A DNA stretch of 64,000 bases. Source: Skeletonema tropicum. Its lineage: Eukaryota > Bacillariophyta > Thalassiosirophyceae > Thalassiosirales > Thalassiosiraceae. Shown piece after piece: positions 29,739 through 52,053 of this stretch (the first letter of the stretch is position 1; every line of letters begins with the position of its first letter). The position numbers and the translations under genes were made by a program. The stretch spans positions 62,001 through 126,000 of the forward strand of contig JAWZXG010000025.1 in assembly GCA_037178625.1 (NCBI GenBank). Direction: 5' to 3'. The notes under the pieces are model-generated. The model ran no database searches. It saw nothing but the letters and a program-made list of their open reading frames with translations, and was not told the origin of the DNA.

Positions 29739-29890
29739 GCGTTAGCCATGCGAACCCATGCGTTGGTTCCAAAAACTGCGATTTTTGCCCGATTCTTACA
29801 AAAAAACGATTTAATACATCTACATAAAAGTTTTTTCATCTTCTTCGTTCTTCTTCGCTCTCTACATACTCTATAGTGTAGATAAGTAAG

Positions 29891-31423: not shown

Positions 31424-33693
31424 ATGCATCGCCATCAAGAAGTAGAAATCGCTGCACAGCCGAGCCAGAGACAGAGGAGGGGCAGCCGCTTGGCGGTGTG
31501 GACCCTCATCATCTCAATCAGCTTTGTTATTCTATCGCTGAGTATATTGGAACCCCTTTCCCGTGGTTCAGTGCAAAATCATGACAGCAAATTTATTTTG
31601 CCGCAGAAAAATGACTCGGTAGAGGGAGGTACCCATGGATTTGCATCGAATGAGACGGGGGGCGGGGAGACTGCATCATCTTCATGTACGTTTTGCGAAA
31701 TTCTGAATGAGCCAGAATTGGTGGTTCCTCAAGCTGGGGGGAAGAGCACCTGCCGCTCAATACAACTGATGGCTGCTAGTGAAATAAATGGAAGTGACAT
31801 TTGTGCGACTCTTCAGAAGGAGGAGAGAGTGTGTTGCCCGGTGGTGTATGAGAGAGCTGAACCAAACGTACTTTTCCGCACTTATGGAACAGACGATTAT
31901 AACTGGACCAAAGCGCGCATCGTCCAGGAAGCGCTAGACACGAGATGGTTTACGTCGGTGAAGTCAATGGGCCCTGAGGATCTTACGGTTGGATTCAGGG
32001 AAGCATTTAAGGATATATTGAAACAATCTCGTGGGGGTGGCTATTGGATATGGAAGTACGATGTCATTGAGCAAGCAATGGGAACAATGAACGAGGGAGA
32101 CTTTCTTGTTTACTTGGACGCTGGATTTAAGATTAACAAGGATGGCGAGGAACGATTCAAGGAATATCTGAAGATTGTGAACGAATCTCAATATGATATG
32201 TTGTGCCTTCAACTGAAATTTCCCGAACACAAATATACGACTGAAAGGATATTTCAGGTGTTCAATGTTTCCATGGAGGATCCCATAAGGTGATCAGGTC
32301 AGTATGTAGGTGGCTTTCTATTAATGCAAAAGGGGCCTCACCTTCGAAGTTGGTTGACAATGGTCAGGGATGCGCTCTTGTCAGATCCTTGGATTGTCAC
32401 TGACAAATATAACAATGAGGCAAAAGCATTTGATGGCGCGTTCATTGATAACAGGCATGACCAGAGTGTATTTAGTGTGTCAAGGAAGATTCATGGCTGT
32501 GAAATGCTCACAGATGAAAGCTACCCTTTCAACCCTTCCTTCCCCTTTTATGCTGCGAGAATGAGAAAGGAGAAAAGAAAATCAGTTGATACAGGCCATC
32601 AAAGAGCTGTTGAGAACATACATTCAAAGCGTCTTCCGCTGCCATCATCATCAGTCTCGGGAGGAGCTATGACTCGATGCATATTTTGCGAGGGCGAGAA
32701 AGTCATTCCAAATCTAGATTTGGTGGTTCCTAAAACTGGTGGACATTCTTGTCGCTCGATCAAGAAGATGGCAGATGGAGAAATGAAAGGAAGTGCCATT
32801 TGTGCGACTCTTCAGAAGGAGGAGAAAATCTGTTGCCCGGAGGTATATGAGTAAGGTTTGTCGTATGACATTGAGCCGCCGTCGGATCCATCATATGATC
32901 GAGTTGCGGCCAAACATCAAGTTACAGTTCAGGGGGAAAGTGACGGCAATGAGAATGTGACAACCTCCCATCCACCTATTCTATATGGACATGGACAGGT
33001 GGAACATCACTGAACGGCGTCTTGGCTAATACGTTCGAGCGCGTTTGTGGACACAAGGGGTACAGTTATGATGCATTCCAAGACAACGAACGAGCCAAAA
33101 TGAAGTCGGAGAAAGGAGAAACAATTCATCCTGCAGGAAGAAGCAGAGTTATGCCAAAGCTCATGAAGGAAATAGGGTTTGAAGAGTGTGATTACATTAG
33201 TCAAGAAAGCGATTGGACATTCTGGAGGGATACTTTTGGGGGTGTTAAATTTCACGGATTAAAGATGGAGTTGCATGTTCCTTGTCGAGACAGGCTTGAT
33301 CACCTCATGTCGCAGTGTAATTTTAAGCATAGGATGCTTGCATGTGACGCCAAGACAGATGAAGAACTGTTCAAGTCTGTGAAAGAGTGCTATGTTGATT
33401 TAAATCGATATGATCATCAACTAAAGGAGCACTTTGATGTGAGGTGCTTTGACTTCAAGACGCAGTTCACTGACTACCCAGAATATATGTCAGGCATTCT
33501 TCAAAAACGTAGGTTTCAGTCAACACCTTATGTGCAGAGAGTGACAAATAAACCTCGCAATCAAACAAATGAATGTATTTGGGGGAATGCAACTGTTTCG
33601 GAAAAGGTTGAGAAATATCTGTTGGAAACTGTCCCATATTATCAATTCTGTGACAAATGCATGGGAAGCGAGAACGAAATCTTTGACAGTTAG
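31424..33693 (+). pseudogene. Gene A: membrane-anchored Cys6-glycosyltransferase-Cys6-sulfotransferase, disrupted
   Basis: A type II membrane protein. A basic N-terminus and membrane anchor (residues about 25-43) are followed by Cys6 module 1 (C88, C91, C110, C127, C137, C138; nt 31685-31840). Next is a GT-A-like domain with GGGYWIWKYDVIEQAM and the DXD-like VYLDAGF (residue ~230). An in-frame TGA at 32291 interrupts it, but the domain continues without frame change (SGQYVGGFLLMQKG) to about 32560. A linker and Cys6 module 2 (32678-32839) follow, then TAA at 32852, then after a frameshift near 32985 a sulfotransferase-like domain starting WTGGTSLNGVLANTFERVCG and ending at 33693. The order shows an ancestral bimodular enzyme like the gene at 42615-45094. 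The first 289 codons could still be translated. No splice pair I tried repairs the lesions. Confidence 0.75.
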
Positions 33694-34348
33694 GGCTTGG
33701 TGAGTAGGCTCATCGAATCCACTGGAATTTGTACATATAACGAAAACTGGAGGAAGCTCAGTTGAGAAGGCAGCTGCAAAAGTAGGAATCATTTGGGGTG
33801 CATGTCACTACATAGAAGTGGAAGAAATAGGTTGCTCCTCCGGATTATTACTCGTGCCGTATCGGTTGGCTCAATTCTCACTTTTACTTTAGTAGTGAAA
33901 AACTAGTTCTTGGCAGAATGACCAGTTCTCGGAATAATGCTTTCTAAAATCAATTCTGGCTCGATTTGAGAGCTTTAAAGCGGGAATATTGTAGCACACG
34001 ATCTTGCGATCAAGGAGATATAATTAGGCAATCGGTAGACCACTTGCTGAATGAGCTGTGTGTGCTCAATGGCAGAAAGTCGACGATTGGCTCGAATCGA
34101 TTTACGGAGTTAGATTCGCCGTAAAAGTCTTGTAATTAAATTTTTTGCTCTCCAGACGGCCCACTTCATTGCCAAGATGCTCACTATCCACCATACCCTC
34201 TCCTCAGAAGATGAAACGATCAACGCCATCAAATACTTTTGCCTCTTGTTATATTTGTCAGTGACAATCCAAGGATCTGACAAGAGCTTATGAGCGATTT
34301 GCAGATTCTCTTGAACGTACCAAAAACTTATTTGTAGTTCAAGATTAT
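33694..34348. other. Spacer with a copy of a gene-cluster intron sequence
   Basis: No gene. At 33846-33891 lies TATTACTCGTGCCGTATCGG and its continuation, a sequence closely related to the intron of the gene at 42615-45094 and to 49268-49312. The rest is AT-rich, with no recognised feature. Confidence 0.6.
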
Positions 34349-34945
34349 GTGCAAGATGAAAACTCCACAGGACACAATGGTTGCACTGCTGTGTTCAGCA
34401 ATCTGTCCAATGAGCCACCAAGATTGTTTGTGACAGAATCCAGTAGATGCGATTGTGCTACAAGACTTGCCAATGATGAAGATATGTGCCCTCATGAAAT
34501 TCTAGCAAAAGGTGGATTTCAAGAATCATTATTCAAGCCAAGACACTTCGCACGAACACGTGTTTCCGGATCCATTATTGGTTGGACGGACACATCTAAC
34601 ACAGGAGAAGGAAACTCTCTTGACGCTATGATAGGATACGAGGCTGAAAACATTTCACCTGCCCAAGGTGACTTATCTGTTGGTAATTTAGATGATGGTA
34701 TGTTAGTGGAAGAAACGAATGAATTGAATGAATGCCCGATTCCGGTCTCAAAGGCGTGTCTGATCGGACACAATGTACAAGGGAACTTAGTACTGAGGCC
34801 CATGAGTTTTTGAGTGCCTTGAAAACTGCCTCAACCCCATTCTGGAGTGCCTTATCGCTGCAACCAACCAAATCGCAAGTAACAGCTCCTGAATACCATC
34901 CTAAACTAATCACTTAATTTTCTAAAAAAAAAAAAAAAAAAAAAA
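34349..34945 (+). pseudogene. MULE-type transposase C-terminal remnant (SWIM finger), followed by a retroposon-like A-tail
   Basis: The frame 34349-34813 includes RCDCATRLANDEDMCPHEIL, which fits the SWIM zinc finger C-x-C...C-x-H found after the DDE domain of Mutator-like transposases. Upstream catalytic sequence is absent, and the frame breaks near 34810. The stretch ends in a 33-bp sequence (34884-34916, AGCTCCTGAATACCATCCTA onward) that also occurs at 60836-60868; both are followed by a long A run. That points to a retroposed 3' end overlapping or inserted in the MULE remnant. Family evidence is the SWIM pattern only. Confidence 0.45.
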
Positions 34946-35065
34946 TCACCTTGGCAATCACCTTGGCCTTGACCCTTGACCTTTGGCTAAGTATGGCTGA
35001 CCTCTTCTGACGACATGATGCGACATTGATGAGACCACAAGTACTTTATCATTCCTACATAACCG

Positions 35066-36301
35066 ATGCAGATATCAGTGAGTGAGAATAAGGGGGTTAG
35101 TGTGATTATATTATTTGCAATGTTTTTCGGGTTGCTAGGTTTACCACTATTTTCGGTAGAGTGTGCTACTGCATTTCATCAACCATCGATACGGTACATC
35201 CACGTCCATCAAAGTCAATGCCGTCATCCAACAATGCCTTTTCTCTACGCTACAAAAAATGAATGCATTGCAGCAAACAAGAAGTATCTGAATCGAAAAC
35301 TTGGATTGACAAAAGATCAATTGCAGAGACTGCAGACAGATGGATTGCCTAACATACTGACACTGGAAGAAGGGATATTGGAGGAACGAGTAGATTGGCT
35401 GAAGAAGCGCCTCAAACTAAAAAACAATAAACAAGTTCGAAAGATTGTTCAACATCAGCCGCATGTATTAGCAAAACTGTCATCTAATTTGGCACAAAAG
35501 ATTGACTACTTACAAACTAGACTACTACTCAGCGATAATTCTTTGAGGAAAATGTTCTTAGAAGCACCTCACTTGATTCCGTGCAGTACAGAAAACATGG
35601 AGGATACGTTGAATTGGCTTCAAAAGCGACTACGCTTGGATGATCGCCAACTGACAAAGTTGATACGCCGGGCCCCGTACACACTGGGATGCAGCGTTTC
35701 TGAAAATCTTGAACCTACGCTCGTTTGGATTCAACAACGCTTAAATGTATTGGATGATTTCTCTATTAGCAGGGTAGTACAGAAAATGCCGCGGATTTTG
35801 CATCTCAACATTGAGGCTAACCTCGAACCTAAATTTGATTGGCTTCAGCATCAATTTAACTTGGATGATGATGCTTTGGGGAAGATGGTGCAACGGTCTC
35901 CAACATTTCTTGGCCTAAGTATTGATACATGGGAAGTGAAATTAGATTGGATAGAGAGGCGTCTTCATTTGTCAGACCAAGACCTCTCGGAATTTATTGT
36001 GAGATATCCGTGTTTACTGAATTGTAACATTGAGTCCAATCTCGATTTGACGCTAAACTTTTACATCGATGCATTGGGAAATGAAAGTGAAGCTGTAAGG
36101 CTAGTCACAAATAATCCTAGCCTATTAGCTTACAGTTTGGAAAAAAGGTTGAAGCCTCGATTGCAGGAGTCACGAGATGCTGGCATATTGATAGATGCTG
36201 GTTGTTTGCGGAGGATTGGACAGTATACCGAAGACTACTGGAAAATGGCTATTTCTTTTGTGCGTGACCATAAAGACCTAGGTATCATAGCCTTACCGTA
36301 G
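35066..36301 (+). CDS. mTERF-like helical-repeat protein, probably plastid-targeted
   Basis: The 411-residue protein is built of about nine repeats of roughly 36 residues, each with a DWLKKRLKLKNNKQVRKIV-type helix pair and a conserved Pro (QHQPHVL, LEAPHLI, RRAPYTL, QKMPRIL, QRSPTFL, VRYPCLL, TNNPSLL), the signature of the mTERF family. These proteins bind organellar nucleic acid and act in transcription termination, splicing or translation in mitochondria and plastids. The N-terminus has a hydrophobic signal (about 11-32) followed by ATAFHQP (residues 34-40). This matches the ASAFAP motif, with Phe at the cleavage site, used by diatoms to target secondary plastids. Single exon. The targeting prediction is from motif only. 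Confidence 0.88.
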   Translation: MQISVSENKGVSVIILFAMFFGLLGLPLFSVECATAFHQPSIRYIHVHQSQCRHPTMPFLYATKNECIAANKKYLNRKLGLTKDQLQRLQTDGLPNILTLEEGILEERVDWLKKRLKLKNNKQVRKIVQHQPHVLAKLSSNLAQKIDYLQTRLLLSDNSLRKMFLEAPHLIPCSTENMEDTLNWLQKRLRLDDRQLTKLIRRAPYTLGCSVSENLEPTLVWIQQRLNVLDDFSISRVVQKMPRILHLNIEANLEPKFDWLQHQFNLDDDALGKMVQRSPTFLGLSIDTWEVKLDWIERRLHLSDQDLSEFIVRYPCLLNCNIESNLDLTLNFYIDALGNESEAVRLVTNNPSLLAYSLEKRLKPRLQESRDAGILIDAGCLRRIGQYTEDYWKMAISFVRDHKDLGIIALP

Positions 36302-36363
36302 GACGAAAAGGGAATGCACTTAGTTGCTCATTAATTATTACTTTTATCTTTAACATAATTAAT

Positions 36364-37281
36364 TTACTCATCATCTTCGGCTTCGAGTTCAGCGTTCTTG
36401 GCATCCTTCTTAGCCTGGACACGGGCTTTCCTCTCCTCAAGAGTGAGCTTGGCTGTACGCTTAAAGGACTTATCTGGACTGAAAGCCTTCTTCTCACTGG
36501 GTGAAGGATCCTCGCGGATCTTCTCGTGAACGCTCTCGTACAACTCCTCAAGACCATCAGCCTCAATATCATTCTCAAGGTATGCAGCGAATTGTGCTTG
36601 GTATTTGGTGTTATCTTCCTCCTCAAGGTATTCCATGTATTCACCAACATGTCCTCCGAAAATACGTTCACGGTGCATGTCGGCATCGTACTCCTTGGAA
36701 TCACGATCGTATCCAGGGAAACGCTTCTCAGAGTGGGGGATGTCCAATCCACCATCAGCGGCACCCTTCAAGGCGCCGAAAATACGGCATCCAGTGGAGG
36801 TGGTCTTTACTCCAACATCCAGAAGAGCGCGGAAGGGACGCTTATCTTCATCGACCTCATCGACGTAGTAAGTAGTCTTACCAATTGTGGTAGAGACGAC
36901 ATTTCCATCAACTTCATCGTTTCCTTCATAGACATCATCGAGTCCAACCTTTTGGAGGAGACGACGAGCACAAAGAAGACCGGTGCAGTAAGCAGCGGCG
37001 TAGTTCTTAAGTCCTACACTCAATCCATAACGGGGCAACTCGTTGGAGCTGGCCGAAGTCAAAATCCTGTCTCCATCGATAAGAGAGTAGGCAATCTGGC
37101 AAATAACCTGCTTATTGGTGAAACGAACGACGAAACGGTATTTGGGAGATTGGTACTTGTTCTTAGCCTGGCAGCAAAGACGCTTGCGTTGACGGTAGTC
37201 GGTCTTTCCCTCGCGACGACGACGGAACTTGACCTGGTACCTCTTGAAGTACGCTTTGGATTTTTGGAGCTTGACGAAAGT
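36364..37281 (-). CDS. RPL5: 60S ribosomal protein uL18 (L5), main exon
   Basis: The exon encodes 305 residues starting [19 protein letters not shown], followed by [24 protein letters not shown]-type [16 protein letters not shown], and [20 protein letters not shown], all hallmark blocks of eukaryotic uL18, which binds 5S rRNA in the large subunit. The length and C-terminal Lys/Ala-rich tail fit the family. There is no ATG directly upstream in frame: the codons before Thr are TGA TAG, and the preceding TTATGATAG is a good 3' splice site. The initiator Met must therefore be in a very short upstream exon. A candidate ATGCAT before GTTAGC lies near 37410 but has a weak donor, so I leave the first exon unplaced. 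Confidence 0.95.
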
Positions 37282-37854
37282 CTATCATAACAATTGATGT
37301 AAAAAGTGGAGAGTTAGTTGATATCGTGTTGAAAAGCAATTTGATAGAATGCAACTTGTGCACGAAGCAATAGATTGAACGCTCAGAATTTCCGAAGACG
37401 CTAACATGCATAGCAACAAAAATCTTGCTAATCCAGGCTAGTATGCATAGTAATAAATTTCCTGCCGATCCAGAGAACCACAGTCGCTACCAGAGCACGC
37501 ACCATGTTGACGAACAGATGAGTCGAAGAAGTGGTCTCCCTTGAGAGAGAGGTGAGATGGGCGCTGTAGAAATCTACTATCGGAATTAGTATCATGCTCT
37601 ATCAGGTCGAAGTAAATGGTAAAGAGGAGGAGACGGACAAAAGCGAAGAGAGATGTTCCCATTTTTGGCGGGACATATCTCGATCGAGATGAATAGAACA
37701 TGGCTAACGATGAGATTTTCCGTCAGCCGTACACTATAGCCACAGCATTACGCCGATCTTTCATCTCAGTCACCTACTGTACTCCATGAGATTAGGCTCT
37801 TAAAAATCGTGGCTGGTATTCACTATTACAAACAAACAAAGACTATCAATCATC
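37282..37854. other. uL18 5' intron and divergent promoter region with gene B
   Basis: No separate gene is supported. The region must contain the uL18 first exon and intron and the promoters of both divergent genes. C/T-rich and CACGATTT-like stretches precede the gene B ATG. Confidence 0.4.
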
Positions 37855-39801
37855 ATGATTCAATCACGATTTTATGCCACTCTAATTCTAATGGTCTTCG
37901 CTGCGGCAAATTTTGCCATCTTCAAGAATTTGCAAACAACTTATTTTCTATCAGTAACTTCAAGTGATAAGCTGCAACAACAGGATACTAGAGCTACTGC
38001 TACCAATCTTGATGGTTTCGAGAGTAAAGCCGACAACGACAATGTCCGCATAATTGCACTTTGCGGCAGGTCATCTCATTTTGATGCCGCATTTCGGAAA
38101 ATATCCGAGTGGCTGCCTCGAATTTTGTATGCGGGAATGTTTCAACCCTCCGAGAACGGAACGAGTCCACAGACTCAGAGGGCTTGGTGTGAAAATAAAA
38201 TTGAGCAATGGGTATCATTGGAGCTGCAGCGGAGGCAAATACCAACGTCCAAGTCGACATCAATTGAAGTGGTTTACTCAGACGATAACAAGTTCAAACA
38301 AAAGTCTACTCTGAATATCACCTTAGTAGGACAATCGAAGGAGCCACCCAAATGGGAAGGTGGAATGCACACACCATCTCAGCTTACTCATTTCCAAAGA
38401 GTTATCCATAGTTGGGGTGAAGTAGCTTGGTCCAAAGGTGTGAAGTGTTCTAAAGACGACTCAAAGCTACATGTATATCGAAGCAGGCAATTGTGGTCAG
38501 TCGCTCAGGAGGAGGATTGTGCAGTAGTGCATCTCCCAGCAATATTGCCTTATATGGAGGGATTCCTGAACAAATTTATACAGACTGGATTGTATCCCAC
38601 CAATGAAACGATGACTTCTTTACTATCACGTCGACTCACACATGATCAAGCTCGTCAAAGCCTCAGATCCAAATCAAGCTTTTGCATCCTAATAACAATG
38701 ACTACATTTCAACCTCGATATTCTACCGATGCGTTGGTGCGACATGCCCTGTGCCGTCTTCTAACAAAGCATTACAAAAAATGTGCAGCAGTTCATTCAT
38801 GGAAGGGGATTAATAAACAGAATATTACTGTTCAAAAAGGCCTCGAAAATGCACATGAAGCAATGAGAGATTACAAGTTTGTTATCACGATGCCAAACCA
38901 TTTTCAAGATGGTTATATAGCCGAGAAAACACTGCATCGATATCTTGCACGGTCAGTAGCAATCACTTCCATTCCAAATATCGGGCAGTATGTCAATGCT
39001 GATGGGATGATAGCGTGTCACTTGCCAGAAGAAGAACTGAGAAAGGTGCAGATGTACTATAAAGGCAACTTCAAATGGATGCCTTTTAATACTACTCCAG
39101 AAATGTGGGATTCCGAAGATGAGATCAAGCCCGTAAAGTATGATCCATATGCAAACAATAGTATGGGGGACGAGCCTGTTTTGAAGTTTGCTACATCTCA
39201 GTGGGAGAAAGCTCTCCAGCCTTGCATCGATGAAATCATTCGAGTAGATCAAGATGACAGTGTGTACATTGAGAAGTTGATGCAGCCGTACGTTCTGAAT
39301 GAAGGGCAGAATTCTATTTTTGATGGATCCTATGTTGCCATGAGCGCGTTGCAATGGTTTCTTTGGAAAAACAGTCCGCTGGTTCAAGGATTAGAAGTTC
39401 AAATTCGTAGTTTGGATGGAATGTGGGAACAAACGCCCGGCTGGGGGAAGCCATTAGAGAAAAAGTTTGAAGATGTGTCTGATTATTATTCGAAAACCAG
39501 AAATGAGGTAGGCTCCTATCCGTATCGTCATACTCAGCATGGATCTGCCCACCAGAACACATCACTGAAAACAAAGACATTGCTACCCACTGCTCCTCAA
39601 GCATCAAGGGTGAATAGCACGACCAAATGCACATTTTGCGACGGCAGGGAAAGCGGTTTCAATCCAGATTGGGTGGTTCTTGAAGCAGGGGAAAATTCTT
39701 GCGGCGCGATAAAGGCAATGGCTGCTGGACAATTGAACGGAAGCGACATATGTGCTACTATTCAGAAGGAGGAGAGTGTGTGTTGTCCGGATCAACATTA
39801 A
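37855..39801 (+). CDS. Gene B: membrane-anchored GT10-like glycosyltransferase with C-terminal Cys6 module
   Basis: The 648-residue type II membrane protein has an N-terminal anchor (residues about 7-24) and a luminal catalytic region. The block DYKFVITMPNHFQDGYIAEK, then RYLARSVAITSIPNIGQYVN, resembles the donor-binding region of alpha-1,3-fucosyltransferases (GT10: YKF-x-L-x-F-E-N ... DY-x-TEK), though the usual FEN is MPN. A spacer is followed by the Cys6 module (C592, C595, C616, C633, C643, C644; nt 39628-39789), and the protein ends three residues after CCP. In sister genes a second enzyme follows such an internal module, so this gene may have lost its second half. Single exon, convergent with gene C. 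The GT10 assignment is moderate. Confidence 0.75.
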   Translation: MIQSRFYATLILMVFAAANFAIFKNLQTTYFLSVTSSDKLQQQDTRATATNLDGFESKADNDNVRIIALCGRSSHFDAAFRKISEWLPRILYAGMFQPSENGTSPQTQRAWCENKIEQWVSLELQRRQIPTSKSTSIEVVYSDDNKFKQKSTLNITLVGQSKEPPKWEGGMHTPSQLTHFQRVIHSWGEVAWSKGVKCSKDDSKLHVYRSRQLWSVAQEEDCAVVHLPAILPYMEGFLNKFIQTGLYPTNETMTSLLSRRLTHDQARQSLRSKSSFCILITMTTFQPRYSTDALVRHALCRLLTKHYKKCAAVHSWKGINKQNITVQKGLENAHEAMRDYKFVITMPNHFQDGYIAEKTLHRYLARSVAITSIPNIGQYVNADGMIACHLPEEELRKVQMYYKGNFKWMPFNTTPEMWDSEDEIKPVKYDPYANNSMGDEPVLKFATSQWEKALQPCIDEIIRVDQDDSVYIEKLMQPYVLNEGQNSIFDGSYVAMSALQWFLWKNSPLVQGLEVQIRSLDGMWEQTPGWGKPLEKKFEDVSDYYSKTRNEVGSYPYRHTQHGSAHQNTSLKTKTLLPTAPQASRVNSTTKCTFCDGRESGFNPDWVVLEAGENSCGAIKAMAAGQLNGSDICATIQKEESVCCPDQH

Positions 39802-40112
39802 TCCCAACATCAACTACTACTGCATTACCTTGCTTTCTCTCTTCTTGAAACTTGCTACTTGGCATTTTTTGCAGCAAGTAAATCTCTATTTCTTTCCTTC
39901 ATCGCATGAGCCCTCCTCGCCTCGACAGTCTTCTCAAAAAGAGGTCTTCTGTCATTCGCACGTCGTGTACGCAAATATCCGACATCATGGGACGATGTTT
40001 GGTGTTCGCACGATGTCACGCCCAGTCCCTACTTCCCATCAACTTAATGGACTGCTATTGCTTGCTGCAGGTAAGGAAGATTGTATTTTGTTTGCACGAT
40101 ATTAGTGTTAGT
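39802..40112. other. Convergent spacer between genes B and C
   Basis: No gene recognised. Weak short frames are present, and no remnant of a second catalytic domain for gene B could be identified. Confidence 0.4.
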
Positions 40113-41756
40113 TTAGTGGAAAAACAACCAACCGGCAATTGGTAGACCCAGCGTTCGACCCCTGGGCAATAGTCCCTCGGTAAACATCATATTTCTATCT
40201 TTCTTATTAGGACCGACACTGTACGCATCTGACTTAGACTGAATATAGTTCTCTGTGAAAGCAACGCTCCACTTAGAACATCGTATCGCTCCGCTCGGCT
40301 CATCTTCCCCATGGAGATGCTCCGCTCGCTGCGCTCGCTTCGCAAGGACCGCAGCACCAGCTACGTAGGGTGGAAAGTAAGGCTCAGGGTATTGGTCTAG
40401 ACTCACATAGTAACGACTTTTGGGGTTTCGAAGAGGTTTCGCATACTTCATGCTGCTAGAACCCCAATAGTGAACAGATGACGGGTGCTTCTCCTTCACG
40501 AGCTGTTCGAGACTTCCCATGGCAACATAAGAATCATCATCAGTTTTCAACGCATGCGAGTAAGTCAAGTTTAGCTCGGACGCCATTATATTGACCACCT
40601 GAAAAAACATCGATGACTTAAATGTGATCAACCTGAAGGACTCCTCCAAATCAACCCATATAATATCTTTATACCTGTGGTATTCTTCTTCGATGTCATC
40701 CCAAGACCCAGCTATAACAAAGAAGACCGTGCTGTCAGCTGCCCACGTAGAACGGATGACATTTCTCCAGCGAAAATTATTGGAAGTTGAGAGAACGCCA
40801 ACAATAATAGCTTTGGGCTTTCCAATAAATGAGCCTGCTTCAGCAGCAAAACGTATTCCCCTGCAAGAAACATTGGCGCTTCGAACGTTAACGTTAACTT
40901 TTGTAAAAACGGTGCTGTTTTCCACATTAGGAGTGCAGTTAGCGAAAGTGCCGGTCCGAACAAGAAGAGCTTCGTTATGATTGTGAAGTAGACCTTCGCG
41001 ATAGTCTACAGATTCTTCTAACCCCTTACCAGACGAAGGTATGAAGTATTTCAATGTCACTTCGTGTGTTTCCACTACGCTAACAACTTGGGCCAGAAAA
41101 AGTTCATTTTGTCTTTCATAGACCACTGGATCACCTATTTTGAAGGGGGCAATCATATTTTGTCGATTTGTAACACCAGAAACACTGGACAACACACTCT
41201 CTCCTCCTTCTGAAGAGCCGAACAAATGGCACTTCCATTCATTTCTCCATCTGCCATCTTCTTGATCGAACGACAAGTATTTCCTCCAGTTTTAGGAACC
41301 ACCAAATCTAAACTTGTAATGACTGCCCCACCCTCGCAAAATGTGCATTGAGTCGTTGCTCCTATTGGTGCCGATGATGATGATTTTGGCGAGAGACGCT
41401 GTGAATCTATCTGCTGCACAGCTCTCTGATGGCCAGCACTGACCGATTTTTTTCTATCCTTTGTATTTGTCATTCCACTACCCAATGTCAAGGTATGGAA
41501 CTGCCATTGTCACAGCTGCAGGAGGTATCATACCGCTGCGTATGTGAGTTATCTTCAAGTACCAAGAGATCACGTGGTATCCATTAGCAATTTCTTGGAA
41601 CGCATTTTTCATCTTGCACATCATGCACGTCCAAAGATAATGATAATACGGGTACGATGATGAACGATGGTATTGTACGGAATGCTCTAGTAAACTACTA
41701 TCGGTCGTTTCCAAAAAACTAGTGCAAATGAAAGTCTTGGCAGTGTACAAGAACAA
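40113..41756 (-). pseudogene. Gene C: Cys6 module plus GT31-type galactosyltransferase, with frameshifts
   Basis: Three overlapping minus-strand frames make one broken gene. Frame 1 (41756-41478) ends AVTMAVPYLDIG. Dropping one T in GGGTAG at the junction would continue it as IGSGMTNTKD. Frame 2 (41491-41153) holds the spacer HQRAVQQ and the Cys6 module (41347-41186). A second frameshift right after CCP leads into frame 3 (to 40113). Frame 3 begins with a small region, FKIGDPVVYERQNELFLAQV, that looks like a Tudor/SH3-like barrel. It is followed by a GT31 beta-1,3-glycosyltransferase domain: WRNVIRSTWA, LKTDDDSYVAM (DXD) and PPYVAGAAVLAKR. GT31 enzymes add galactose or related sugars in the Golgi. 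No membrane anchor is visible, so the 5' half, perhaps a first enzyme, is lost. Sequencing errors could mimic the two frameshifts. Confidence 0.75.
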
Positions 41757-41957
41757 AGAACTACTTGTCTGATAAATTTAGGACCAATCGATTCACATAC
41801 ACAAACACACTATCATCAATGGAAGGAACAATTGAAACAAACAGAGAACGATCTACATTCTTCACCTACAGAATCATCTTCTTGACCTTGTCGTTGGAAT
41901 GGAGTACTTCCAAGCAACACTGAAACAAAGAGCTACTCTGCCAGAAGGAAACTGCAA

Positions 41958-42413
41958 TTGCCTAAAGAAAAGATATGGTCAGGCGGTTGTGACTGTGGTG
42001 CATGCAAATATGAGATTACATTGACACCTCTAACGCAGCTACAGCATTGTTACTGTAACCTGTGTCGGAAGTTGTCTGGCGGTCCGTATAGTACTTGGTT
42101 GCCAGTTGACAAGAAAATTAACGGAAATCTTAAAGTACGTCATGGTTGGCCCTCCAGGGGCGAAATTATCTACAATTATCTAGAGCAATTTTGATGGAAG
42201 CAATCATCATCAAAGTCAGTGACTCTTCTACGCACAACATCCGTTGGTCAAAGGCATATTTGCAATAAATGCCGTGGTACAATGACAATCGCGTACGATG
42301 ATCAATCAAATCTCATTTGGCCTTGTGCAGGTGGGTTGGATGATGCGACTTTGCCGGATAGCAGTGATGAGGAGTGTGTCATATCTGTTGTCGTAGCTTA
42401 CCACCGTGGATAG
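41958..42413 (+). pseudogene. GFA/CENP-V-like zinc protein fragment
   Basis: The frame has GGCDCGACKYEI and HCYCNLCRKLSGGPYSTW, then after an in-frame TGA (42192-42194) continues in the same frame with GQRHICNKCRGTMTIAYDDQ. The paired CxCxxC, CxxC and CxxC motifs are the zinc sites of the glutathione-dependent formaldehyde-activating (GFA)/CENP-V fold. There is no suitable ATG at the 5' end, and the internal stop breaks the domain, so I regard it as a decayed gene unless an unseen intron removes the TGA. Confidence 0.6.
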
Positions 42414-42614
42414 AATTGCCAGAAGATGGTATGAAGAAACTATCTGATGCTTGCTGAGGATGATGTGTAGTTAGCGTTTTATGGATAAGCGTGTTTGTGG
42501 ATGTTCTCAACGCGAGGTCATTCAAAATTCAAGTTTCTAATAATTTGTATTGTACATAATGCATACATTTCTATTGACATGTCGGCTACTTTCACATATA
42601 TATGCACTTATTCA

Positions 42615-45094
42615 CTACTGTTTTAATACTGCATCTCGGTACAACTGAGTCACACTAAAACTACCGCCGTCGAGGTACGCAAGCTCTCGCTCCCACTTCT
42701 CGAGAGCATCATCACACACCACTCGTCTGCCCAAAGCATCATCTGATTCAAGCCAAGCCATCTCGTTCATGAAGTGTTTGAGCGCATTCACGTAAATGAA
42801 AGAATCTGCTGAAGTGAGATTGGCCACCTTTGATAGAGTTGCTCGAGGAAGGTCTCTCAGACTAGAACGCCTCCCCTTATTGTGGTACTGTACATGGACT
42901 GTCCCATTTCTATTCTTTTGATGATTTTCGTGCTTGCAGTGACAAGATTTACTCAAATATGATTTTACGACAGGAGGAGCATTGTTGCCAAGTCGATAGT
43001 ATAGCATGCACTGTGATTCATGGACAAACTCTACCAAAGCTACAAAGTCAAGATCTTCGTAGGTTTTCATTGCAAGAGCCATGTTTGGGTTGAATCCTCC
43101 TATGCCACTGTGCACATAACGATTTCTCGATGTCAATGATCTCGTTTGGAAATTGGCTGGATGATAACAGTTGTAGTGATTATTTGTTTCGTTGCCCATG
43201 GACACGAAGTGATCAAGCCATGAATCAAAGTCAGCTACATCGTCTTCGCTTTCTTCTCCGCTCCTTGGAAAATCTTCACTATCTTGTTGTGTTTGCTTCA
43301 CCCCCCAAGTAGAATATTTGCACATAGTGAACTGACTCCAAACGTGATGTCTTGGGGATCGCAATGAAATGAGTTTATAATCTGCATTTTTACAAACAAA
43401 CTTTTGCTGATGAAAAACGGAGAATTCAGGGCCATCTTCTTTTTTTGGACATATGCTGAGCTTCAGAATTGAATTGAAAAGCCGTATCCAAGTAGATCCA
43501 GCACATTTAGAAATATGGACGAAGCTGAAATTGTCTGATGGATCAAGCCGTGTAATTCGTTTTGGATGTAACGACGAAAATTTCTCATACACAACCGGGC
43601 AACACACTCTCTCCTCCTTCTTCAGAGTCGCACAAATGTTACTTCCAATAATTTCTCCATCTGCCATCTTCTTGATCGAGCGACAAGTATTTCCTCCAGT
43701 TTTAGGAACTACCAAATCTAGTTTTGGAATGACTCTTTCACTCTCGCCCTCGCAAAATTTGCATTGAGTCGTAGCTCCTATTGGTGCCGATGATGAAAAT
43801 GGTGGTTGAAGACGTTCTAAACCAACCTGCTGAACAGCTCCCTGATGGTTTGCATCGACTGAGCGTTCTCTACTTTTGGTATTTGTCATTCCACTGCCCA
43901 CTTTTATTCCCTGCCTTTGCCTTTCTAATCCAGTAATATTACCCCGCACCTTCCCCCAGGCTGGAACAAAAAGTAAAGTGAGATTTGGGCCAACCGATAC
44001 GACACAAGTAATACACTGACACAGAGTGACTTACTATTTGAATACCCACCCTCATGCCAAATTACCAAGGGATTGACCGCGTATATTCTCTTATTAAGCT
44101 CTCTTGCAGCCCTGTAGAAGTTTGGTTCAGGGTCCAAAGAATTATGGTGCACGTTCTGCTTCCTATCCTTGCTGCCATGGATCAATCCACGCTGCAAAGC
44201 GGCATGGAAATCGTCAATGCTGTTCCGAGGGACCACAAAACCATAGGCGCCATAAGAATTGCGCACTCGCCTGTATGGCACTGCAGAGTCTTCGTATGAC
44301 CAAGTATGGCCACCTAGCCAAGCAACGAAAGTATCGCTGGGGAGTTTCGAAAGCAGCTCCCCGCGTTGATTGACATCGCAAAACTCTTGTGTACTATTCT
44401 GAAAAAGACGTGCATCGTCTTCAAGGAAAATTGCCACTTCCTCGTCTAACTGCCTCGCCCTCCATAAACACAAAACCCAAGCATGAGTCACACCGTATCC
44501 CCGGCGCTTATCTAAAGGAGCAGGGCAGTGTTCAATATTTGTGGAAGAGGACGAGGGGCCACATGCCATCCGCCATTTTTCTTTGAAGAGATCTAAACGA
44601 TTGTGATTGCTATCATGTGCCCCTGGAGTTCCTTGGAGCGAGATGACGAATATAGTTTTGGCTGGGGAGAATGGCCGCGGCCGCGGGCAGCACACTCCCT
44701 CCTTCTTCTGAAGAGTTGCACACATGGCACTTCCTTTCATTTGACTAGCTGCCATCGACTTCATCGAGCGACAGGTCTTACCCCCAGTTTGAGGAACCGC
44801 CAAATCTAGATTTGGAATGCCCATATCGCCATTGCAAAAAGTGCATTTAGTGGCAACTTCTTCCGATAATGCTAAAGACTTGTTTTTTTTAGCATTCCTG
44901 TGATTTGCTTGGATGGACAGTTCTCGGCTCTGTCGATTGGCCAAGTTCACAACATTGAGTAGATATCCAACAAACGCTAGAATTAATAAGACAAGGATAA
45001 AGTCTCTCCTTCGCAGCACCAATCTGGTGCACCACTCTCCGTTGCGTTGGCCTCTCTGGCCTTCACTTTCATGTCGATTTCGATTTCGGGTCAT
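42615..45094 (-). CDS. Gene D/E: bimodular Golgi enzyme, Cys6-GT25-like transferase plus Cys6-sulfotransferase
   Basis: Two exons, 45094-44035 and 43960-42615, separated by a 74-nt GT-AG intron (GTAAGT...TTGTTCCAG, phase 1), give an 801-residue protein. Without splicing the first frame ends soon after; with it, YSN joins in frame to TWGKVRGNITG. Order: basic N-terminus, membrane anchor (32-49), Cys6 module 1 (C84-C136), and a GT25-like domain with FVISLQGTPG, GVTHAWVLCLWRA and AIFLEDDARLF (E225-D227). Then come a spacer, Cys6 module 2 (C420-C474), and a carbohydrate-sulfotransferase domain with the PAPS 5' phosphosulfate loop FVHISKCAGSTW (about 500-511) and 3' phosphate motif ISLRSPRHHVWSQF. 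It is probably Golgi-luminal, modifying glycans by sugar and sulfate transfer. This is the intact reference for the cluster. Confidence 0.85.
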
Positions 45095-46096
45095 AATTCT
45101 GTAATGTTACTACAATAATGTGCGTTTCTTTCTGTGATGATCGGACAGAGACGACAAAGAAGCCAGCTGGTAGACATGCACAGCTTTGGCGGTATTGTAG
45201 CATTCGCCATGAAATATCTTAGCGCCTTTCTCAATACTTAAGAAGAGCTCTAGCAGCTGATTGGATTAGCTACAATCTGCTACAATACAATGGTATTGTA
45301 CTTCTTTTGATAGACTTCTATCTCTATCTCTCTCTCTAGAGAGGGAGACGTAGTAGGGGTCGTTTGATATCAGCACCATTCCTGTAGATGGGACTCCCTA
45401 ATATTTGGCACTTTTCTCATAAACGAGACAGGAAATGGTGGCAGTCACTGCGTTCTCTTTTCTGAAAGGGTGGTATCATTGCTACGTATTCCCACAGTAC
45501 CATGCGCTCCTAAGAAATAAAACTTCTGAGATCTGAGAGGAAATCTCATGTCGGAAAACTCACCGCCACCTCCTCACCAACCAACCTGCACCTACCTCAC
45601 CAGCCACCAACCACTCTTGTGGTGAGGAATTAGCTAGTTGAGAGTTAGTTATAGTACTAGTAATGATGCTATGTAGGTTACAGTGTCTATCTAACACTAG
45701 TTTACTGTTACGTAAAAGTTCTCTAGCAAACGTGCATACCTAAGTAAGCTAAGGCCCGTAAGCTCTATCAAGTAGCGAGGTGGTCGAGGACAAGTTAGCA
45801 CATCGACACGATTGTATACAATACAAAGTTAAAACACAAAAGGAAATGGATGTAGATGTGTTTAGTAACATCCGATGTCTGCCATCAAAACAGAGCAGGC
45901 TGGCTAGCGGATCGAATATAGACAAAATGTTTAGTCCTATTGTACATCTATCACGTCATCTTAACATAATTGATCAACTAATTATTGACCTCAGTTACGA
46001 CGAGGCTGTTGATTTCCTCTTCCTCGATGAAAGACGTAATTCTTTAGACCACGTACTGACTGACCAAGTGCCATGACCCTTCTTTTCAAAGAGAGA
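45095..46096. other. Upstream region of gene D/E without a recognised gene
   Basis: The stretch holds the promoter side of gene D/E and AT-rich DNA with CTCTCTCTAGAGAGGGAG near 45330. A weak plus-strand frame (about 45780-46076, 98 codons, no ATG at its start) has no recognised motif and is not called. Confidence 0.35.
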
Positions 46097-46861
46097 TCAG
46101 ACGTTCCTGTCGTAGGTGATGATGATGCTGTCATGCACGCCTTTGTGCATATTATGGAAGCCAAGAGCATCAACATTGATGGGTCGGCCCATGCAATTCC
46201 ACTGTGTCACCGAACACGCCCAAATTAGGATCCCACCCGGCGTTCCTTCTTCTATCGCCCACTTAGCTATGTCCGAATAGAGATCAATTCCAATCGGGTC
46301 CGCCTCCTTCTCCTCAATTTGGTTGTTTTGTTTTGCAACGGATTTCTCTCGCTTCATGCTTGCAATGTAGGCATTCATTTCATCACGATACTCTTCACTT
46401 ACACGAGAGCCCCCGGAGTACTCTGAGCACTTCAATATCGCATCATGGTAATTTCTGATATGCGAAAATCCTTACTGTTTCGTTTTGGCTTCATCTTTCC
46501 ACTTCTTTCCGTGGCTGCAAAATGCCATCATAGGCGCACTAATCAAGTGATTGTAATAAAAGTCCCGTTTTGCTACGTAGTAAAAGCGAGATGGATCGGC
46601 TTTCTGTTCTGGAGTTAAGTTGTACACAACTTCTCTGTAGTATTCGGGCATATGTTCTTCGAAATAATCCTTTGTTTCCTCGTTTCGATTCCTATATTCA
46701 CGGAGATTTTTTATCACATGGCTTCTAGTCTCAAGTACTGCGGCTTCTTGAACTGCACTTAAACAGAAAGAAGACGCGCCGGTGGATGCAGCGGCTGGCG
46801 CTGCCTGCCGCGAGTTTCGCGAGTTTCTTTTTCGACGAGCAGCCGTAACCAACCCAGACAT
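46097..46861 (-). pseudogene. Fragment of a Crypton-like tyrosine recombinase/integrase
   Basis: Two in-phase frames, 46861-46472 and 46435-46097, are separated by one TAA (KTKQ-stop-GFSHIRNYHDAILK). The N-terminal part has an Ala-rich leader and LTPEQKADPSRFYYVAKRDF. The second part has YSDIAKWAIEEGTPGG and SVTQWNCMGRPINVDALGFH, then DSIIITYDRN, where it stops. That block resembles the region around the first catalytic Arg of Crypton/DUF3504-type tyrosine recombinases common in diatom and other stramenopile genomes. The C-terminal H-x-x-R and Tyr are missing. Truncation plus the TAA indicate a dead copy. The family is recalled from motif wording, so only moderate confidence. Confidence 0.5.
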
Positions 46862-49309
46862 GATGTTGTTGTTGTTGGCCTTATTTGTTGCTGATATTCT
46901 TATTAGTGCTATTACTACTACCCTTTCTACATCATATTATGAAGCATGTTGGCGTTCAGGGGGCCAAGCGCCATGGTGTCATGATGCCGCTGTTCGGAAA
47001 TCTTCGGAAATGCTTGGTATTCTTGTCGGAAAAATGAGAATGACTGTAGCTCTTTTGTTAGCACTCTCCGCGCTCTCTGGCTCAGAATCAGCTAGTCGGT
47101 TCTCATTTTTTCAACTAGCTAAATCGGACTCCCACGCTCAGAACTTTTTTACTAACAAATTGTGTGCTTTTGTGTGTAACGCTATGTACCAGAGACCTTA
47201 TTTTACCTTATTTTTTAATTATGTCAAGTACCCAGCAGAACTTCGCTTGTAGTAGCCCGATTTTAATGATTCCAAGAGCAGTTTTATTCTCAGTAGGGTA
47301 GTAGTGAATAGTCTGCCAAATATTATGCTGTGATTCCATCGTCAGCAGCCGTTATAATGGGTATTGCTGTCTCACGGTGTGTCAGCATCTACGTGAAAAA
47401 CGCTAGTAAAAAACCATGGGCTACCTATGGTTGGTACGTAGGAAAATTTTAAAAGCACCTTTTAGTATATATGCGTGAAGATACTCGGAAACTACATAAA
47501 ATTTGTAGTTCAATGGTGTTTTGACCTCGGGTTATAGCCTTTTGCATCATTGAACACTATCACACCGAAGTTTGCTACTCTTAGTTCCCTAGTAATTATG
47601 CAGATATGGCCAATTTTGGTGAGGTAGGAAACTGATTAGGCTGAGGTCAATATTGTGAGTATAAACTATAGATTGATTATTTTCCGAAAGAAGAAGACAT
47701 GCTGAATCGGTTGCAATAGCGAGCGGGCGTTCAATGTGATCATATAACATGCTAAACGTGCTGCCAGTATAGTGAGTTTTTCGGACGCCATGTTTGTTAG
47801 CACTTTTGTTAGTAAATTTTTTTTTTGGCTCCCGCCACTCTCTGGTACATAGCGGTAAACTCTCAGCAAGGAGTCCGATTTTGATAGTCAAACTAACTAG
47901 CAATGAAAACTCTTTTCGCTACGCCACGCGTCGGAATTAGTAGCGTGGCGTAGCGAAGCCCAAAATTAATGTTATTGCTGTCCTTTACTTTAAAAACTCT
48001 GTTGAATGCCCAACTTCAAGTTGTTTTGCCGTGTTTTGCCTGACTCGAGTTCGACCAATTTAGTTTTGTCCTGTAAGTCTAATTTAGTCTTGAGACTGAC
48101 TTTCCGTGACTTAAAAGGTACTGAAGTACCAAATTCCTATGTGAATAAAATGTCCGAAGACAAAAAAGAGTTTTGTCCGAAGACAAAAAAGAGTTCATTC
48201 TTTTGACTCGACTTAAAAATGGCATCTAAAACGACACAACCATGGTGAATATGGGCTCCCTACGACTAGCCATAACTCAGTAACTACCTGGACTTTGACC
48301 CTATTTCAAAGCATCAATGCTATTTATTTTATCTTTAGAAGCTCATTGATACCTTACTTGTCCGCTAACTCCCATGGTTGAAGGCAAAGGTAGGATTTGA
48401 GAGCAAACGTACAGTATTGTAGGTTAGCCTATCTACCTACTTTCTCGAACACTTTCTCCTACAGCCACACATTCCACGTGGAGTTAGGAGCACCTCACGC
48501 GGAGACGAAGATGCCGCCAGCACGCCACTTCTCTATCTCATGCATCATCTTTACCTTTACACGGCCGGGCCGGGCCGGGCCGGCCAAGATGATGAACGCA
48601 TTGTTTTTTCTTCATTGCTCTAAGCAATATCATCAAAAAATATCAAATAGCTTCAGCTTCAATCTTTTTGGGGGTTAACGTTAACCCTTGAGGCAAGCTG
48701 GGTGGTGGGTGGGGCGGAAGAAAACTAACAATTGGTCATTTATTGGATAGAGTAATACTACAGATCGCCTGCACTCATTGTAGTGTGTGGGCTTTTCGGC
48801 ATCGGTTGTCTCTCGCTAGTAGTTTTAAGCGTCCCACTCCCCACTTGTTTGTCTTTGTCCAAACGGGGTATGAAACATCTTTGATGTTCCCGTCTTGCAT
48901 CTAGAGGGGTGTGGGTTCGCATCGTAGATTTACAGCAGCTGTTCATCAAAATTGGGATCACAGAGGCACACGTAAGAACCCAGACGCCATACCTTGAAGA
49001 TATTATAGTCAGAGCAACAACATCAAACATCAAAGACACTAATAGAGGGGAGGAGTGCTGCTTTAGTTGGCAAAAGCAGTCATCAACAAGGGGAGACGGT
49101 GGTGACATCAGCCGTAGCCTTGTAGCGACCACGATCCAAGTTAAGTTTTACGATGAAAAAACAAGATCATCCATCACTTGAATCCCGGGGATATGATAGC
49201 CCATCATGAGAGCATCAAAACTGCGGCAGAGGGTGAGTATTCAAATAGTAGGAAGTCGCTCATAGTGTATTACTCGTGCCGTACGGTTGGCTCAATTCTC
49301 ACTTTTACT
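46862..49309. other. Gene-poor spacer with a strong hairpin and a gene-cluster remnant
   Basis: No convincing gene; plus-strand frames at 46782-47252 and 48909-49181 lack motifs. A run of GGGCC units lies near 48560-48590, followed by a GTTAACGTTAAC palindrome near 48674. At about 49215-49312 the DNA matches the exon 1 end and intron of gene D/E, so this is probably a relic of a paralogue. Confidence 0.45.
47915..47957. repeat. Perfect 15-bp inverted repeat (hairpin)
   Basis: TTCGCTACGCCACGC at 47915-47929 is exactly complementary in reverse to GCGTGGCGTAGCGAA at 47943-47957, with a 13-nt loop. It stands in AT-rich DNA. Possible origins are a miniature transposon end, a Helitron-type hairpin or a transcript processing site. 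Confidence 0.8.
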
Positions 49310-52053
49310 TTACTCTCCAAGGTAGTCTTTTACTGTCTTGAGAATCATACTTGCACTTTTACTTGGGTCAATGCTTTCTCTTTTTAAGGCAAATAGTTGT
49401 GGATGACTCCAAACATCCTCGCCCATTATTTGACCGTAGTATGTCTCGTATTGATCTGCCCCCTTGTGAAAATGGTCATAATCCTCTATGATTATTCGCA
49501 GTCGAAGTAAGAGCGATGAAGAATTCATTTTAATAGAAACAAATCCAGACTCAGCGGATGATATCAGGTGAGCTGCTCCACGGCCATTGCCATCTACCAT
49601 GACAAGACTAATCCTTGATACCTCATTTTGAATCCATACTGTGTGAGAGTTAAGTTGGTAAAGAGGCTTGTGTTGTTTCATTGGAAATTCAAGGCACAAT
49701 ATCAATCTCTTTGATGACTGCCCTTGCAGCAAAATGTCAGTAGTTCCATCATGACTCCAAACCGAACGTGAGAACGCTCCTTCAATCGTCGTCATTGACA
49801 CTTTCTCATCCAATGAACAGGTGGTACTAGAGGACGGAGATTCATTAGAATTGCTAGATTTGACTTCCAAGGATACCAACCCATCCCCTCCCTCTTCCCA
49901 CCACGATTCTATTGCAGGATGACGGATTAAGCCCGCATTAACACATGCTTCTCGTGGCAACGCGATGGGTTTTATCAGCTGCTGCTCATGATTCCATCCC
50001 AAACCATACTTACGAGCATGAGCCCAACGGCAAAGCCGGCAATTATTCCTTCCTAAGACAGGAAGGTACTTATCCATCAAAGCTTTCGGTAGCGGCTCTT
50101 CTCTCCATACATGATATGAGTTGTAGAGAGTCTCATTATTCGCCACTTCAATTAAATATCGGGCCAGCTCTTGTGTTGTTGAGAAGTCATTCACATTGAT
50201 AAATGAGTTTTTAGGGAAAAAATGCTCACCAATGTTTGGCGCCCCAAGGTAAACTGGGATAGTACCGGATTGAAGAGTAAGCCATAACTTCTCGGTGATG
50301 TAGTCGTCTGTGTTTTGATTTTCAAATGCCAAATGGAATAGGTACCTCTGCATAATCTCACTCTTATTTCTCCACTTAGACTCCATCCACTTAGACTCCA
50401 TCCTCACTCCGTTGGGAGGCTCTGCGTTACGCAAACAACTAGACAGGGAATCTACTCGAAAAGATGCCTCTATTAATTTTGTGACGACCTTTTCACGGTG
50501 GTTAATTGATCTGCAATTTGTCGCCAGAAAGCTAGCGCCCTTGATGGCAGTGGTATAGTTCACTGGTGGAAACTCATTGGCAGGAATCCCGAATGTGACC
50601 AGCTCGCGTGCGACCGGATAAGCCCGAGGAATTTCTGATTTGAAAGATGTTGTACCGTAGAATTCCTGTGGAAATCAAAAAGGACAGATGTGGCACATCA
50701 GAACAAAGAGAGAAGTCATGAAGAGATAATAGACCAAGCCCCCGAACTCACATTTCGTTTCCAAGCATTTTCATCTACTCTCACTGGAAATCTTTGCTTC
50801 GAAGTTCGAAGTAGACAATGGATATAAATGAAGGAGCGGGTGAGGTGAGGATAAGATAAAGATAATTTGCAAAAACAATCAGAAGTAGAATGATTTGAAC
50901 ATACCTCTCCCTCTATTGAAAATGTAAACAGCCAATCAGTGCCATACACGTATTGCTGGAAGACTGTACCTCCCTTTGATGGTTCCGCAGCACATTTTAT
51001 ATCGCATTGTTCATCATTCAATAGTCTTGTATTTTCATCGGATGAGAAGGAGTCATCATTGTAGTAGCCATACATTTTGGGGGGTTTGGGCAATTTTTCT
51101 TTACTTGCGATTACATTGGAAGAAAATGTATCATCAAGACGAACACTCAAACGTTTTTTTGAGGCGTTTTTCGTGGTTGATAGTTGTTGCGAACGCAATG
51201 AAGCAATTATTTGTTTTGATGGTAACCCACCCCTTTCTCTGTTTTCGATGAGAATCCCCGGAAACTGGTGTCTATTCTCCATAGTTGGCGGTTGTGGAAA
51301 TGAGTGCGATCTGAAAGCAATCTCATGCATCAAATCTTTTCTTCCTCCACATTTATTGTGAATATCATCATGTGTCAATGGTTTCACACTGTTTGGTCTG
51401 ATGATCAACTTTGCATTGCACAGGAATTTATCACGTTTGGACGGGTTGTAGATGAAGAGATGAGTGGATGTATTTGTAACATTGTCATATGAACTGCAAC
51501 GACGATGCGGCAGCTGTTGTAGCTTCATATCGCACGGGAGAATTTCAACAGTTGTCGTGTTATTAGGCGTTTTGGATGATATAACCTCACTTTCAAGAGC
51601 ATTTGCGCTTTGAGTAGGCCTGGGAAATCTATCTATATCATAATGATGCGATGCTGCCTCGAGCCCTGGGCAGCACACTCTCTTCTCCTTTTGAATAATT
51701 GCACAAATATCACTTCCATTTACTTCTCTAGCAGCCATCAGTTTTATTGAGCCACAAGTTTTGCCACCTGTCCCAGCGACCACCAATTCTGGCTCGTTCA
51801 GAATTTCGCAAAACGTACATGAAGTTGATGTAGCCTCCCCGCCCCCTGTCTCATTCGGATCCCCCCCTTCCGAATGATTTTGTGGCAAAATAAATTTGCT
51901 GTCATGATTTTGCACTGAACCACGGGCAAGGGGTTCCAATATACTCAGCGATAGAATAACAAAGCCGGTTGAGATGATGAGGGTCCACTCCGCCAAGCGG
52001 CTGCCCCTCCTCTGTCTCTGGCTCGGCTGTGCAGCGATTTCTACTTTGGTCAT
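49310..52053 (-). CDS. Gene F: membrane-anchored Cys6-alpha-1,3-fucosyltransferase (GT10)
   Basis: Three exons, 52053-50905, 50796-50752 and 50665-49310, all in phase 0 (introns 108 and 86 nt, GTATGT...CGAAG and GTGAGT...CCACAG), encode 849 residues. The anchor lies at about residues 23-42 and the Cys6 module at C79-C128 (nt 51819-51667). The catalytic region is built from exon 1 to 3. Exon 3 has LFHLAFENQNTDDYITEKLW followed by SGTIPVYLGAPNI, the diagnostic GT10 alpha-1,3-fucosyltransferase motif that binds GDP-fucose. The C-terminal 200 residues are unusual for the family. The N-terminal 130 residues are nearly the same as those of gene A although the catalytic domains differ. The tiny 45-nt middle exon keeps the frame, supporting the model. 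A short in-frame duplication (MESKW twice, near 50378-50405) precedes the motif. Confidence 0.85.

Follow-up and report, generated by a model that had tools for sequence, protein, structure and literature searches.

In the dockerin-cohesin system of cellulosomes, one small module is repeated on many carbohydrate-active enzymes, and WSC and other small cysteine-rich domains occur on secreted proteins of algae and fungi. NDST, LARGE and EXT are glycan enzymes with two domains, and both polyketide and peptide synthases and surface-antigen gene families recombine between conserved segments. Here we describe a gene cluster in the diatom Skeletonema tropicum that can be compared with each of these. 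It lies in a stretch of 64,000 nucleotides (GenBank assembly GCA_037178625.1, contig JAWZXG010000025.1, positions 62,001 to 126,000; hereafter the window, numbered from its first letter), in which a six-cysteine module occurs seven times (m1 to m7) beside glycosyltransferase and sulfotransferase domains. The explanation that we consider probable is that the module is a portable stalk or joint and that its repeated DNA is a recombination seam at which glycan-modifying enzymes are swapped.

Like dockerins, the module is found on different carbohydrate-active enzymes and, in several copies, on other surface-type proteins; unlike them, it is carried by eukaryotic biosynthetic enzymes and lies between catalytic domains. 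Like WSC-type domains, it is short, rich in cysteine and carried by carbohydrate-related proteins that are secreted or anchored in a membrane, but it differs in having six cysteines with a CCP ending, about 52 residues and no Pfam family. As in the synthases and antigen families, repeated conserved coding DNA would be the place of exchange that yields new domain orders, whereas here the parts are Golgi-type glycosyltransferases and sulfotransferases and the repeat is a six-cysteine module. A Dictyostelium GT74-GT2 enzyme has two catalytic domains in one chain, according to excerpts of PMC11468063. Two catalytic domains per glycan-modifying chain are common to that enzyme, to NDST, LARGE and EXT, and to this cluster, which differs in having several distinct pairs, each linked by copies of one module. 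No description of the module or of this arrangement was found in the titles and abstract openings of open-licence literature.

A pattern search of the window confirmed the seven modules that an initial annotation, made from the DNA letters alone, had located; their spacing is exact, and the search found no others. It returned no module in 20 random Markov sequences, and a chance motif was rejected on that basis. Across the genome (78.4 Mb, 125 contigs, given here as C with a number; the window is C40:62001-126000), four single-module searches pooled gave 63 module places at E ≤ 0.001, a minimum where divergent copies are concerned and possibly with some alleles counted double. The first search found 54 of these, the next two added nine and the fourth added none. 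Stops are present in two places, and one module is apparently split over two matches; one low-complexity match was removed from the module set. In an alignment of 71 modules (64 of 70 homolog pieces plus the seven from the window), the phenylalanine of CxFC is kept in 70 and a glutamate ahead of the last cysteines in 68; none of the 71 lacks any of the six cysteines, although that cysteine pattern was the criterion by which homolog pieces were chosen.

None of the 39 modules scanned singly against Pfam (from 43 unique ones, less three near-copies and a divergent stretch) matched a family; two hits, each by one member, had E values of 0.068 and 0.099, and none of the 39 matched dockerin at E ≤ 1. 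The structure model of the module (pLDDT 87.2) has three short helices, and neither a search of PDB sequences with the module nor a search of PDB folds with the model (Foldseek, VIA) found a match. A protein search with the module alone gave nothing among 24 candidates, probably because length limits the candidates; searches with whole proteins did find homologs. The module is probably a small domain, not yet catalogued, that belongs to secreted proteins, and each copy may form three disulfides.

Single proteins contain modules and catalytic domains in alternation, an arrangement that the initial annotation had not described. Gene 3, on the reverse strand, reads m6, GT25-like domain, intron, m5, sulfotransferase ST2. 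Its exon 1 (44035..45094) encodes an anchor, m6 (44684..44845) and the GT25-like domain; its exon 2 (42615..43960) encodes a linker, m5 (43596..43763) and ST2 (~43544-42618). The 74-nt GT..AG intron between them (43961..44034) fits one gene, and two other donors, giving 62- and 56-nt introns, also preserve the frame. The joined sequence, GGYSNTWGKVRGN, is that of the public protein P0073, which shares the joint between the GT25-like domain and the module with gene 3; the sulfotransferase is not shown in P0073. The source label of P0073 bears an accession of MMETSP, which we take to be a transcriptome project. At C40:261-263k and C10:2095-2097k, a module and GT31 come after a GT25-like exon of this kind, with a matching 73-nt intron in the former. 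At C40:357k, a single open frame of 792 codons encodes an anchor, a GT8-like domain, a module, the putative glycosyltransferase GTx (named for its YLDAG motif) and a second module. Public proteins show further orders: module-GT31-module (P0072), module-PF09612-module (P0082), partial module-GT25-like-module (P0085), module-FkbM (P0086) and module-Sulfotransfer_2 (P0090). The module is located at the joint of anchor and catalytic domain, at that of two catalytic domains, or at the C-terminal end.

Homology between these genes stops at the module. We compared 18 representative loci of 30 in pairs, with domain labels assigned by reading the frames, and 134 of the 153 pairs align across the module. 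In the 128 pairs whose downstream parts are different or unread, the last homologous position lies within -9 to +39 bp of the module end, with a median of +1; in the 121 pairs with different upstream parts, the first lies within -137 to +45 bp of the module start, with a median of +29. Several pairs are nearly identical over a long distance on one side. The GT8 genes are 96.2% identical over 1509 bp up to the module, and the GTx genes 97.7% over 1692 bp beginning 36 bp before it. GTx and GT10 genes share an anchor and stalk at 91.9% over 442 bp, again ending at the module. Genes with ST1, a sulfotransferase-like domain, behind either GTx or a plain anchor match at 94.5% over 1077 bp from 19 bp before the module, and the GT25-like genes, whether with ST2 or with GT31, at 83.2% over 1460 bp until 27 bp past it.

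The 792-codon gene (C40:357057) changes parent cleanly inside its module, across a 14-bp identical tract. All 15 informative sites on the left agree with the GT8 gene and all 19 on the right with m1, and none of 20,000 permutations was as extreme. This within-module switch carries the main weight of the argument for a seam. Module m1 (31685..31840, forward strand) is likely a mosaic as well, switching near its nucleotide 40 from the type of GT10-gene modules to the GT25 type, with 13 of 13 sites agreeing before the switch and 24 of 30 after it (0 of 20,000 permutations as extreme). Other stand-in parents gave 12/12 and 20/29 (5 of 20,000), 12/14 and 23/33 (99 of 20,000), and 16/16 and 20/28 (1 of 20,000); m1 looks like an older and less clean mosaic than C40:357057.

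On secreted-looking proteins the module occurs in arrays, and its copies on glycan enzymes with a Golgi-type anchor largely belong to one lineage. Because many copies lie near each other, their ~150-170 bp of similar coding DNA would serve as homology patches, and unequal crossover or gene conversion at a module would swap the upstream or downstream parts. The initial annotation had called the locus an evolving system, and module DNA as the place where catalytic domains are exchanged supports that view beyond what it had seen.

The company that the module keeps bears on a different proposal, namely that it is an adaptor: by binding a single glycan of wall or mucilage, or a scaffold, it would recruit different enzymes there, with the shared flanks a by-product of duplication. 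All the catalytic domains beside modules in this genome that could be named act on glycans or are methyltransferases, as an adaptor would have it. Module-linked enzymes above Pfam cut-offs are GH20 (C5), GT10, GT31, GT61 (C9), PF03407, Sulfotransfer_2 and an FkbM methyltransferase; a GT8-like domain, Methyltransf_24, a C18 GT61 and a second GT10 fall below. The best PDB match of the GT8-like domain is 6mw5 (E 1.6e-4). ST2 was identified by fold, and GTx, the GT25-like domain and ST1 by motif only; the partners of modules at C11, two C8 places and C10:1862k were left unread. Also favoring an adaptor, a GH20 hexosaminidase frame (L032, C5:4150000-4158500) has four modules ahead of its catalytic domain together with its own putative carbohydrate-binding domain, and other modules sit on Ser/Thr/Pro-rich proteins. 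A segment is repeated near both ends of L032, which is possibly a merged or partly duplicated gene.

The module is present on non-enzymes too, which argues against the adaptor. Eight secreted-looking open reading frames (ORFs) with modules have no recognised enzyme domain: three on C8 and one each on C1, C15, C14, C6 and C19. The C1 ORF encodes a Ser/Thr/Pro-rich protein with four modules, ORFs with SdrD_B and PDZ domains have seven modules on C15 and three on C8, and the C14 ORF combines three modules with DOMON and FG-GAP. Adjacent C8 ORFs have two and three modules, and those on C6 and C19 one each. In a whole-protein search of public sequences, all ten matches had modules and PDZ, and eight of the ten had SdrD_B. 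The initial annotation had proposed an adaptor dedicated to glycan enzymes, and these eight ORFs contradict it in part, by the very test that it had named.

The check that it had suggested, on the company that the module keeps, had a divided outcome, with arrays on secreted-looking non-enzymes on the one hand and, on the other, a single lineage for most enzyme-linked copies. In a tree of 49 modules over 52 columns (16 of 46 inner branches open, root not known), 20 of the 22 enzyme-labelled modules fall in one clade (support 96/90), though their enzymes are unrelated. Outside it are the first module of the C9 GT61 protein and the module of the C18 GT61 protein; the GH20 modules form a separate group. 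Among the places found for each enzyme family, PF01762 (GT31) is beside a module in three of three, and three of five PF00852 (GT10) places have a module upstream on their own strand. The module-associated fraction is 1 of 15 for PF03407, 2 of 12 for PF04577 and 1 of 22 for PF03567, and on these figures we rejected the idea that the module is general to Golgi enzymes.

The composition of the module also speaks against one shared ligand. Mean net charge is -5.4 and -5.8 in two sets of array modules and -0.4 and -0.5 in enzyme-linked modules (-4.5 in the GH20 set). This contrast suggests different surroundings or partners for the two kinds and therefore makes one common ligand less likely. Aromatic residues are scarce (a mean of ~1.5-2 per module, with almost no Trp), which counts against sugar binding of the stacking type only, and the fold search matched no binder. 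We regard the adaptor as doubtful. Our own reading of the module is a stalk or joint, presumably held by disulfides; it may keep enzymes close to each other or to a glycan and possibly has a binding role, and the enzymes may act on a common glycan.

Several observations weigh against the seam explanation. A merely shared domain also gives homology that stops at its edges, so the edge statistics alone are weak, and the pairs with long near-identity on one side are therefore the informative cases. With a 30-bp flank included, 22 of 23 left sites of C40:357057 agree and one is opposite. The parents for C40:357057 and m1 were picked by eye, and the permutation counts are uncorrected for that choice. 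The C40:357057 fusion is a candidate, read from the assembly sequence. Two of the 22 enzyme-labelled modules (C11 and C8:2214k, both within the 20) have unread partners. As far as gene calls go, 72 of 80 ST2 homologs are without a complete module, and these include every one with a recognised diatom organism or gene-model name (64 of the 80, plus the window protein, form the ST2 alignment). The names include Mediolabrus comicus, Thalassiosira profunda, Skeletonema menzelii, a CCRYP gene model, presumably of Cyclotella cryptica, and one shortened to "Core". Copies on C10 and C40 are up to 99.7% identical, and the assembly may hold two haplotypes, which would inflate copy counts. Three catalytic parts in the window look decayed: GTx by its TGA, ST1 as a relic and GT31 behind m4 by a frame change. 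The GTx copies are very young (synonymous divergence, dS, of 0 to 0.014; 0-2 synonymous and 2-12 other differences per pair) and have no deficit of amino-acid changes, and the GT8 halves differ at one synonymous and six other sites, with no sign of constraint. Because the young GTx copies and the GT8 half lack constraint, the 792-codon fusion may be neutral.

Two observations stand beside these. C10:2.00-2.16 Mb and C40:93-358 kb contain near-identical blocks in changed order, possibly as two haplotypes or as a rearranged segmental duplication. In the ST2 homologs P0060 and P0061, the sulfotransferase directly follows a PF05704/PF04488 glycosyltransferase domain, with no module between them.

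The signs of decay and the lack of visible purifying selection in the GTx copies are what one would expect if the cluster were mostly a graveyard of young neutral duplicates and relics whose fusions have no function. We consider this rather unlikely. The GT25-like domain is constrained between the window and C40:261k (ratio of nonsynonymous to synonymous divergence, dN/dS, 0.17, from 37 synonymous changes and 28 others), and the m7 exon takes an intermediate value of 0.48. Gene 3 and the GT25-like-module-GT31 gene are both open, and P0073, whose label points to a transcriptome, has the joint between GT25-like domain and module. The cluster combines genes that look functional with young, shuffled copies and with relics, as continuing recombination would leave.

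Ordinary domain shuffling, in which breaks survive only between folded domains and module DNA is no seam, is unlikely. Most homology edges are at a domain boundary, as it predicts, but the switches in C40:357057 and m1 are inside the module, and the former crosses an identical tract, as homology-driven exchange predicts. That the GT8-module-GTx-module gene is a misassembly of two loci is very improbable even in a repeat-rich, possibly two-haplotype assembly, since its frame is open throughout and its left and right parts, at 96.2% and 97.7% identity, have their own differences from the supposed parents, which excludes a simple joining of exactly those sequences.

The remaining genes of the window have the following parts. 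On the forward strand, gene 1 opens with its N-terminus, a hydrophobic anchor (~31493-31549), m1 and the start of GTx (31424..32290), which has no Pfam match. The in-frame TGA inside GTx (32291..32293) is replaced by an open frame in the copies at C10:2073k, C10:2155k, C40:142k and C40:357k. The rest of GTx, a Ser-rich linker, m2 (32678..32839) and a stop codon follow (32294..32854), and then the ST1 relic (32855..33693), which is out of frame and has an altered start relative to the open module-ST1 frame at C10:2161k. Gene 2 (37855..39801, forward) encodes an anchor, a GT10-like domain and a C-terminal m3 (39628..39789). Gene 4 (40113..41484, reverse), probably decayed, has a linker, m4 (41186..41347), the frame change and GT31 (~40341-40766; profile positions 3-155 of 195). 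Gene 5, also on the reverse strand, begins with an open frame for anchor and stalk, m7 (51667..51819) and stem (50719..52053). The next open frame (49310..50674) contains a GT10 domain (~50009-50536); its join to the m7 frame is putative, and the same order is found at C10:2126k and C40:294k. The anchor and stalk of gene 5 (51878-52046) are complementary at 96% to gene 1 (31440-31608).

The enzyme families named in the initial annotation were upheld unevenly. GT31 scores 72.8 bits in the window and 107.2 bits in the open C40:262k copy against the PF01762 cut-off of 23, GT10 of gene 5 scores 125.6 bits against the PF00852 cut-off of 23.9, and ST2 has the fold of a PAPS-dependent sulfotransferase. 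ST2 is 17% identical to heparan sulfate 6-O-sulfotransferase, from which it differs in sharing its chain with a module and another enzyme. The GT10 of gene 2 stays below the cut-off (14.7 bits, E 0.024). The GT25 assignment found no match at E ≤ 0.1 in Pfam or NCBIfam for the domain beside m6, nor any PDB sequence at E ≤ 5, and GTx and ST1 keep names given by motif.

The secretory setting that the initial annotation proposed fits the predicted N-terminal anchors, the unrelated glycan-active families and an adjoining nucleotide-sugar transporter gene (28416..29741, reverse; PF04142, E 1.1e-83). Hydrophobic N-terminal segments (Kyte-Doolittle 1.76-2.54) are present in the four window genes examined, and two single-module ORFs on C8 have none. 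The products may be active Golgi enzymes. Near the cluster is a retroelement with an open frame of 1247 codons and a reverse transcriptase domain (PF07727; 10763-14503, reverse), and a borderline Rfam tRNA match lies at 40102-40173 on the forward strand (29.1 bits against a cut-off of 29, E 0.058).

Chaetoceros, Thalassiosira and other diatoms are reported to secrete a fucose-containing sulfated polysaccharide that forms aggregates and may add to carbon sequestration (PMC7896085, in part). A term search of the main text of that paper gave 0 occurrences of "fucosyltransferase" and "biosynthe". According to excerpts of PMC11468063, diatom genomes have no GT23 and an average of three GT10 members; the same source warns of possible cross-reaction of the antibodies used, asks for validation of the diatom structure and holds it unproven. 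GT10, sulfotransferases and GT31 together would fit the making of sulfated fucose-containing glycans. With modules upstream of three of the five GT10 places and beside all three GT31 places, the cluster offers concrete candidate genes for such glycans. It also provides a candidate example from nature of one protein domain acting both as a joint and as a recombination seam. Tentatively, the cluster could be an "assembly line" in the eukaryotic Golgi that reshuffles its own set of enzymes, with the module both the joint of catalytic domains and the seam at which their DNA is swapped. If so, the lineage would keep making chains of one, two and perhaps three enzymes, altering its sulfated, fucosylated surface glycans.

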